A DNA stretch of 32,391 bases from an uncultured Acidimicrobiales bacterium (GTDB taxonomy: Bacteria; Actinomycetota; Acidimicrobiia; Acidimicrobiales; SHLQ01), in assembly GCA_937969345.1 (NCBI GenBank), contig CALBVK010000263.1, forward strand, positions 1-32,391, read 5' to 3'. The position numbers and the translations under genes are program-made. This document shows, in pieces, positions 9,157-14,109 of the stretch. The notes beneath the pieces were generated by a model. The model did no database searches and was not told where the DNA came from. It saw nothing but the letters and a program-made list of their open reading frames with translations. Each line of letters starts with the position of its first letter. Position 1 is the stretch's first letter.

Positions 9157-9166
9157 CCGCCAGCCA

Positions 9167-9228
9167 GGTACCAGGTACCTTTCCCTCAAAAGGTACCTGG
9201 TACCTTTTGCCCAAAAGGTGCCAGGTTC
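9167..9228. repeat. Cluster of three alternating REP-like palindrome arms
   Basis: GGTACCAGGTACCTTT (9167-9182) is the perfect reverse complement of 9189-9204, with a 6-nt loop. The second arm also pairs with a third (9213-9228): GTACCTGGTACCTTTT against AAAAGGTGCCAGGTTC, 16 positions with one mismatch and one wobble. The block 9193-9228 matches 10579-10614 at 32 of 36 positions. It lies between the convergent MFS and Rieske genes and could stop transcription from both sides. The form is that of REP elements mobilised by REP-associated tyrosine transposases; no transposase is present here. Confidence 0.8.
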
Positions 9229-9246
9229 GTTTTCATCTCGGTCGAG

Positions 9247-10398
9247 TTAGCGGCCTAGCCGGGTGCTGATGTATCGGTCGAAGTCGTAGACGTTTCGTTC
9301 GAGATACGACATCGGTGCTCGTTCGAATTGTGGGTTCTGGACTCGGCGTCGAATCCCCTCGACGATCGGGTGATCTTCGCTGTTGACCAGATGGATGAGA
9401 TCCATGACCTCGGCAATGTAGTCATCGACGTTCGCCTGATCGGCGAGCATTTCGGGTGCGACCGCTACCTGCCAGGCAATTCGCACCCGGTCGGTGCCGA
9501 GGGGAGTAATGCGCAGAAACCACAACCAGTCTGGTTGTAGCTGAATGACGAAGCCGGGAAACACGGCGGCGAGCACGATCGTCGAGCGCCACTCACCTTC
9601 GAGGGACGTGTTGGACTCGTGGCAGAGGTCGCCCCCGGGCTCGGCGACGCGATGATGAGCCCAGTCTGGGGTACCGGGGTACATAGTCGTGTGCTGAGTG
9701 CCGTCGCCGTTCACGCCAAAGCTGTCTTTGTGCACTTTGAAGATGTGGTATGCATCCATGAAATTCTCGACGAGCAGCTTCCAGTTGGTGTCCCACACAT
9801 CGACCGCCTCGTGCACCGGTACATAGCCGTCCATCTCAAATCGGCCGACAAGCTTGCTTAGGCCGCTCAGGCGGTCACCAAGTGGCGTGGGATCGTCGGC
9901 TTGGCTCACGAAGATGAAGCCTTCCCAGATCTCCGTGCGAATCGCGTTGAGCGCATGTCGGGATGGATCGAACGGTGTTCCGTCTGCTTCGACGCTGTCG
10001 TGCATGTAGGGCCCGCCGGCGAGGGAGCCGTCCAGGCGGTAGACCCAGGCATGGTACGGACACGTAATGCGGCTCTCGTTTCCGCAACCGTCGAGGAGCT
10101 CCGCTCCACGATGGACGCACACGTTGTCGAACACATTGATATCGCCTTGCGCAGATCGAATGACGATTACGGAGCGCTGTCCAGTCGAGGTGGGGATTTC
10201 TGCGGTGATGTAGTCGCCGGCATGAGGAACGTCGGCGGTGCGCGCCACACACAGCCAGTCGTTACCGAACAGGTCTGCTATCTCGGCGTTCAGCATCTCG
10301 GTGGAGCGGTAGGCCTCGAGCGGGAGCATCCGAGCGTTGGCGAACGGGAGCTTGGCGTGCCGGCCGAGCTGGTCGAATATCGAGTCGTCGTCGAGCAT
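9247..10398 (-). CDS. Rieske non-heme iron oxygenase, alpha-subunit type
   Basis: This 383-residue protein has an N-terminal Rieske [2Fe-2S] domain with ligands C94, H96, C113 and H116 (C-x-H-x16-C-x2-H). The C-terminal catalytic domain carries the mononuclear iron motif ENFMDAYHIFKVH (211-223), with D215 as bridging residue and H218 and H223 as ligands. It should hydroxylate or demethylate a substrate using O2 and electrons from a separate reductase; no reductase or ferredoxin is nearby. The substrate is unknown; similar enzymes act on aromatic acids, quaternary amines or choline-like compounds. ATG 10398 was chosen because it overlaps the upstream TGA (TGATG); GTG 10437 would add 13 residues. 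Confidence 0.93.
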   Translation of the reverse strand: MLDDDSIFDQLGRHAKLPFANARMLPLEAYRSTEMLNAEIADLFGNDWLCVARTADVPHAGDYITAEIPTSTGQRSVIVIRSAQGDINVFDNVCVHRGAELLDGCGNESRITCPYHAWVYRLDGSLAGGPYMHDSVEADGTPFDPSRHALNAIRTEIWEGFIFVSQADDPTPLGDRLSGLSKLVGRFEMDGYVPVHEAVDVWDTNWKLLVENFMDAYHIFKVHKDSFGVNGDGTQHTTMYPGTPDWAHHRVAEPGGDLCHESNTSLEGEWRSTIVLAAVFPGFVIQLQPDWLWFLRITPLGTDRVRIAWQVAVAPEMLADQANVDDYIAEVMDLIHLVNSEDHPIVEGIRRRVQNPQFERAPMSYLERNVYDFDRYISTRLGR

Positions 10399-11147
10399 CA
10401 GGACTGGTCCATCGTGAGGGTTTGGCCGATTCGCCACGGGTGGGTTGACGCCGTGATCACGTACTCTCCATGCTGCTCGTGCGCCAGGGAGAACTCACAG
10501 TCGAGCACCGCTCGCGCCGCAACGAGATCGTCGCAGCGGCGGATCATGTCGGCCAATCGCCCCTCCGGGGGTGAAGACGTACCTGGTACCTTTTGGGCGA
10601 AAGGTGCCAGGTACCTTCGGCGGTCGATTACTTCCACGACGACTGGGCCGATGCAAAAGAGTTCATAGCCGGGAGCCGTCGACCGGTGTCGGCGAACGTC
10701 GCCGCTCGTCTCCGGTACGCGATGCCATTCCTCGACGTATGCGCCGCTCGGCGCACGTTCGATCATGACCGACCCGTCCTCGTTCCACTCGAGCAAACCA
10801 GCCTCGGGGAAGAGCGTTTGGGGCTGCACAGCGATGCCGGGCTCGCTGAACCACTCTGCCGTCGCGGTTCGCACTCCATTGCGTTCGGCGAGCGGCGTGC
10901 AAGTCGTGAAGCCGCTGCTCGAGTCGGTCGATGCCAGTCGAACGAGATCGTCGCGGTCGCACGCATCGAGTGAGCCGCGCGCCGCGAGTTCGACGTGATC
11001 GGCGGCAAACCGCACATCGACCATGTGGGATTCGAACTGCATCCACACCACGATCGACGTGTCGTCGCGACTCCCGTCGGCATACTCGATCCACCGGCGC
11101 TGCCACACGCCGCGGAGGAGTTCGGGAACGCATGCTGACTCGGACAT
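10398..11147 (-). CDS. Unknown protein, possibly HRI1/lipocalin-like, carrying a REP element
   Basis: This 249-residue protein starts at ATG 11147; a longer frame upstream only shadows the opposite-strand gene. The N-terminal half has a repeating beta-rich pattern (GVWQRRWIEYADGSRDDTSIVVWMQ, VDVRF, TATAEWF, YVEEWHR), reminiscent of the two-lobed lipocalin-like HRI1 family; this is a weak match by eye. Residues 178-190 (RYLAPFAQKVPGT) are encoded by the palindrome at 10579-10614, so a REP-like element has been added in frame between VVEVIDRR and the C-terminal region. The stop overlaps the Rieske start (TGATG), suggesting that the two are made together. It could bind a ligand or assist the oxygenase, but the role is unknown. 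Confidence 0.75.
   Translation of the reverse strand: MSESACVPELLRGVWQRRWIEYADGSRDDTSIVVWMQFESHMVDVRFAADHVELAARGSLDACDRDDLVRLASTDSSSGFTTCTPLAERNGVRTATAEWFSEPGIAVQPQTLFPEAGLLEWNEDGSVMIERAPSGAYVEEWHRVPETSGDVRRHRSTAPGYELFCIGPVVVEVIDRRRYLAPFAQKVPGTSSPPEGRLADMIRRCDDLVAARAVLDCEFSLAHEQHGEYVITASTHPWRIGQTLTMDQS
10579..10614. repeat. REP-like palindrome inside a coding region
   Basis: Arms GTACCTGGTACCTTT (10579-10593) and AAAGGTGCCAGGTAC (10600-10614) pair over 15 positions with one G-T wobble around a 6-nt loop. It is a second copy of the hairpin at 9193-9228 (32 of 36 identical, same orientation), 1.39 kb away. Here it lies within an open reading frame and is translated in frame. Confidence 0.8.
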
Positions 11148-11243
11148 TCCCGCACCGTATGCGAAATCACGTCGATCTGAACAAGCGATCGGCCCAACGC
11201 CAACGCTCGGTTCGCTCGCTTCCGGGATATGGCAAGGTTGGTG

Positions 11244-13830: not shown

Positions 13831-13842
13831 CGGCCACGCAGT

Positions 13843-14064
13843 GGGGTCGCGTCTCATCTTCCACTCGAAAAACCACCCAGCGGCCGCCTGGATACAACAC
13901 AACCCGGCGGGGTCGCGTCTCATCTTCCACTTCTGTCGCCAGTTGTCGCGGGACAGTCGTTTGGAATCCGGCTCGGATGGAAGATGAGACGCGACCCCCT
14001 CGCTGCCGGTTGATTTCGGGGGGAACGCGTGGGTGGTTGGAGATGGAGGATGAGACGCGACCCC
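13843..14064. repeat. Mirrored cluster of four REP-like units (BIME-like)
   Basis: Four copies of a unit beginning GGGGTCGCGTCTCATCTTCC occur: forward at 13843-13864 and 13909-13930, inverted at 13978-13998 (perfect) and 14044-14064 (one mismatch). Both pairs have a spacing of exactly 66 bp, and both nested pairs share the same symmetry axis (13953.5). The sequence between units on the left arm is weakly similar to the reverse complement of that on the right (a shared AACCACCCA and ACCCGGC/ACCGGC). The block fills the gene-free stretch between tRNA-Ser and the DUF389 gene, about 400 bases. It looks like a bacterial interspersed mosaic element; no coding function is visible. Confidence 0.85.
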
Positions 14065-14109
14065 CAAATGTTCGCCTGACGGGCGGGGATCCACACCTTC
14101 TGGTAATGA

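Follow-up and report, generated by a model that had tools for sequence, protein, structure and literature searches.

The window, by which we mean the whole stretch of 32,391 nucleotides that was analysed, comes from an uncultured Acidimicrobiales bacterium. On its minus strand lies a two-gene operon whose upstream gene contains a short palindromic repeat; an element of the same repeat family is found in an intergenic position. The features are as follows.

9166..9235, no strand assigned: intergenic REP-like element of three palindromic units, of the same family as the in-gene copy; includes 9193-9228
9247..10398, minus strand: Rieske-type ring-hydroxylating oxygenase alpha subunit; its ATG overlaps the stop codon of the upstream gene
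10398..11147, minus strand: gene for a 249-residue HRI1-like beta-barrel protein, with insert; ATG at 11147, stop TGA at 10398-10400
10574..10617, minus strand: REP-like palindrome within the gene, made of two 21-nt units spaced 25 bp apart, one hairpin; it adds a net 36 bp (12 codons) when compared with orthologues
10579-10614, minus strand: core of the in-gene element

The palindrome and its host operon

The 36-mer at 10579-10614 shares 32 of its 36 bases with the intergenic copy at 9193-9228, a match for which the chance expectation within the window is ~3e-10; the original prediction had given the same count, and recomputation returned it unchanged. The in-gene 36-mer is also self-complementary at 30 of 36 positions, as a short stem-loop palindrome, and the intergenic copy is adjoined by a third palindromic unit (9166-9180). 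Repeat-like sequence at the in-gene site is slightly wider than the core, covering ~10574-10617 (39-44 nt). As predicted, the reading frame passes unbroken through the element: the peptide RYLAPFAQKVPGT (nt 10578-10616) is located at exactly residues 178-190 of the HRI1-like protein, and stop codons are absent from all six frames of the repeat. As mRNA, the stretch is predicted to form a hairpin of -23.6 kcal/mol (z -4.7), equalled by none of 200 shuffles.

The stop codon of the HRI1-like gene and the ATG of the Rieske gene overlap by one base (TGATG), in line with the stop-start coupling stated at the outset. A Rieske oxygenase follows the HRI1-like gene in the orthologues examined (54-69% identity). 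The operon of HRI1-fold (double lipocalin-like) protein and Rieske alpha subunit, found at 9247-11147 of the window and at orthologous loci L080-L089 and L093, is conserved across the Acidimicrobiia. The label "HRI1-like" is supported by fold: the protein matches yeast HRI1 (YLR301w, 3rby) across 185 residues with Z 13.6, an rmsd of 3.9 and 10% identity. Yeast HRI1 was not among the best Foldseek rows and was found on a second look, and a Pfam search with 18 members of the HRI1-like protein set gave no HRI1 family match at E values up to 1. Judged from its substitutions, the gene is evolving under constraint, because 10 of the 13 codon differences from the gene of the sister species (genome G010) are synonymous (pN/pS ~0.1). 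Its conserved residues are intact in the insert-carrying copy; for the Rieske gene, pS is 0.21 and pN 0.027.

The repeat family and its probable transposase

Multi-copy REP-like GGTNCCWGGTNCC palindromes are scattered between the genes of the window's genome (G000), a draft of 455 contigs that is 84% complete. Elements are built from a 21-nt palindrome, AAAAGGTACC-W-GGTACCTTTT, that recurs every 25 bp, and typically contain two or three such units. A search of G000 with AGGTNCCWGGTNCC gave 45 hits in 17 clusters, and the reversed control gave 0. Hits were likewise frequent in G010 (45), G009 (43), and G006 (19), with 0-5 in other members of the genus. The in-gene copy has the two-unit form and aligns with its closest relatives in the genome over 34-37 contiguous nt with 1-3 mismatches; other copies extend to ~65-70 nt. 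Most family elements, like the in-gene copy, lack stop codons in all six frames. One insert-free site was recovered, where a full three-unit element on contig C247 of G010 faces a gap of ~64 nt in contig C53 of G006. A clean insert-free counterpart of the element on contig C416 of G000 was not found, the flanks being rearranged in G010, G006, and G009.

A gene for a Y1 transposase (Y1_Tnp, PF01797; G000:C449:15454-16086) has arrays of the GGTNCCWGGTNCC-type repeat on both sides, composed of nearly symmetric units whose number differs between the two arrays. A repeat-bracketed transposase is likewise found in G010, G006, and G009. A transposase of at least 67% identity occurs in exactly the four repeat-rich genomes, and identity in the other seven is at most 52% (Fisher p 0.003). 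In G007 (C101) and G008 (C266), palindromes of a sister type, AGGTGCCWGGCACCT, flank the transposase, which there shows 52% identity (loci L201 and L202). This sister palindrome has 106 copies in G007 and 51 in G008, and is missing from G000, G010, and G009. From this distribution, transposase and palindrome appear to evolve together, each clade with its own palindrome, and we infer that the repeat is mobilised by its cognate Y1 transposase/RAYT.

The transposase scores 47 against Pfam Y1_Tnp (cut-off 23) and 57.1 bits against NCBIfam NF047646 (REP_Tyr_transpos), below the equivalog cut-off of 80. In the 58 clusters inspected, neither a GT(A/G)G head nor a CGTC tag recurred as a constant feature at one end of the palindrome. 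Since the GTAG head of classic REPs is absent and the transposase falls below the NCBIfam cut-off, we name the family REP-like and RAYT-associated, not classic GTAG REP; the term "REP-like" used at the outset was apt.

Two other repeat arrangements were seen. At G000:C31:5148-5403 (L137), two copies of the repeat lie ~216 bp apart, each followed immediately by TGTGGATAACTTG with a DnaA-box-like TGTGGATAA. Within the window, positions 13836-14065 hold four copies of short direct and inverted repeats, GGGGTCGCGTCTCATCTTCCA / TGGAAGATGAGACGCGACCCC, in pairs with 66-bp spacing.

For a census of copies inside and outside genes, we combined pattern and BLAST hits, fetched the surrounding stretches, and called genes with a home-made caller based on codon usage. 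This yielded 112 clusters in six genomes: 70 in G000, G010, G006, and G009, and 42 in G007 and G008. Only the site described here and its twin in G010 are wholly intragenic, leaving 110 clusters that are not fully inside a gene; in G000 alone the figure is 16 of 17 (P for one or fewer intragenic clusters among 17, ~3e-13). As the clusters are mostly extragenic despite a coding share of ~86% in the fetched DNA, gene insertions are avoided or purged. One apparent further intragenic copy, on contig C85 of G009, was rejected: it is a loose pattern match ahead of the real repeat, which begins at the stop codon. Many clusters touch gene ends. At L025 (G000:C351:701), L196 (G009:C85:9201), L238, L246, L254, and L255, the stop codon of the neighbouring gene is provided by the palindrome end or adjoins it.

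Orthologues, possible exchange between species and protein models

Orthologues of the HRI1-like protein were gathered from the order and from GTDB contigs, and 18 from the Acidimicrobiia were aligned. The segment is present only in the window's gene and in that of the sister species G010, both known from metagenome-assembled genomes. In G006 (58% identity), G016, G017, G018, and others (47-58%), a gap of exactly 12 residues lies over the REP-encoded residues, as the proposed alignment was expected to show; one insert-free orthologue is two residues longer at this place, and eight more distant, shorter marine orthologues are without the whole loop-helix region. Among the 18 orthologues, no species that lacks the repeat, and none outside the two sister species, carries the segment. 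The comparison supports the segment being an insertion relative to orthologues, made in the lineage that holds the window genome and G010, with a net gain of 36 bp. Base-exact placement of the junctions is prevented by the divergence of the nearest insert-free orthologue (58% identity) and by the length of the repeat-like stretch (39-44 nt), which exceeds the net gain by a few bases.

Compared with contig C47 of G010, window positions 10576-11208 differ at 3 sites in 632 bp, against 91 in 1329 bp on the left side. This near-identical tract is embedded in sequence differing by ~5-7%, and on the left it stops at the edge of the in-gene palindrome. The pattern suggests a recent exchange tract with one end at the repeat, and within this tract the insert may have passed between the two species. 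Given this possible exchange, presence in two species is no proof of long retention, and the near-identity of the tract makes the zero substitutions inside the repeat uninformative on selection. At the intergenic element (9166-9235), identity with the same contig is 94.5% to the right of the repeat and 84% to the left. Recombination breakpoints may lie at repeats.

The AlphaFold model of the window protein has a mean pLDDT of 84.8, and residues 181-195 are its only internal stretch below 50; an unaligned insert would in part be expected to score low, but a position between strand and helix fits a loop. In the model of an insert-free orthologue (93.6), an 11-residue strand-helix connection, short and confidently modelled, lies at the place of the insert. 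The models fit an insert that lengthens, at low confidence, the variable loop joining a barrel strand to the next helix; the loop placement suggested at the outset is thereby supported by two models.

Origin of the translated segment and its precedents

We consider it highly probable that a mobile, RAYT-associated REP-like palindrome inserted in frame in the HRI1-like gene and was tolerated in a variable loop. A two-unit copy would have entered the gene in the lineage common to the window genome and G010, presumably through the Y1 transposase that the family flanks, and was probably close to neutral for the protein. The frame was kept because the net gain was 36 bp; the absence of stop codons in six frames allowed the repeat to be read as ~12 extra residues; and since the insert falls in a variable strand-helix loop, the protein and the Rieske operon survived. 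A full element of ~64 nt would break the frame, so only forms with a net length divisible by three would be survivable in a gene.

Three other explanations were weighed against this one. The segment might be ancestral and lost in the other orthologues, its likeness to the repeat being secondary. Indels are indeed frequent in the loop concerned, but this history needs independent loss of the identical 12 residues in all other lineages, and it is the DNA, not the peptide alone, that matches family members at 34-37 contiguous positions; we regard it as extremely unlikely. That the HRI1-like gene is a decaying pseudogene, with the insertion merely awaiting purge, is scarcely more credible. The gene was not detected in some genomes of the genus; however, the frame is open and the conserved residues are kept in two species, the low pN/pS and the retained stop-start overlap with the Rieske gene pointing the same way.

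REPs elsewhere act on mRNA, and the strong predicted hairpin lies ~175 nt ahead of the Rieske start. It might be retained for tuning operon expression, for instance because it slows ribosomes or shields the transcript ahead of the Rieske gene. Against this, all other species conserve the operon although they lack the hairpin, the family has been purged from genes elsewhere, and the exchange tract leaves no comparative sign of selection on the repeat; we give this explanation a small chance. Similarly improbable, in our estimate, is the more far-reaching proposal that the untagged, transposase-associated palindromes of the Acidimicrobiia (GGTNCCWGGTNCC / AGGTGCCWGGCACCT, one per clade) gave rise to a translated loop in a conserved protein of the Rieske operon, and that the loop or its mRNA hairpin has a role.

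Insertion of a mobile palindrome with tolerance in the protein, as preferred here, has precedents. The best known are the RPEs of Rickettsia, which are ~105-150 bp long, code for a conserved peptide, and frequently lie within genes (PMC2229807, PMC10969869). They share with the present repeat a mobile palindrome placed in frame in a conserved gene and tolerated in the protein, whereas the present repeat is ~40 bp long and almost never intragenic. Di Nocera et al. (2013, PMC3733652) catalogued GTAG and CGTC REPs that are read in frame inside genes of many species; these repeats are mostly extragenic, with a minority wholly within ORFs, where dimers encode 20-30 residues, sometimes in only one affected gene per species, and their ends often provide the stop codon of neighbouring ORFs (PMC3733652). 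The present family is likewise short, mostly extragenic, and read in frame when intragenic, but it is untagged, its host belongs to the Acidimicrobiia (Actinomycetota), and its insert comprises only 12 residues. The original view that in-gene palindromes are rare for REPs agrees with our census, but must be set beside the intragenic REPs catalogued in several species (PMC3733652).

The association with a transposase also has parallels. In RAYT/REP systems (Nunvar 2010, PMC2817692) and in their TIR-associated relatives, the TIRYTs (PMC3733652), a Y1 transposase is bracketed by genome-scattered palindromes, as here, and each transposase clade has its own repeat, as in the present system. Unlike RAYT/REP, the present repeat has no GT(A/G)G head, and its transposase stays under the REP_Tyr_transpos cut-off (57.1 against 80). 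In the library that was searched, no paper dealing with REP or RAYT families of Actinobacteria turned up.

The in-frame intragenic palindrome is thus a known, rare phenomenon to which the present case adds an example from the Acidimicrobiia, and the understanding of REPs is unchanged by it. The case is well delimited, bringing together insert-free orthologues, the source family, a probable transposase, and a structural location. It also puts a figure on how rarely such insertions survive, one site among 112 repeat clusters, when random placement would put most in genes, and it extends to the Actinobacteria a phenomenon reported mainly from Rickettsia and proteobacteria.
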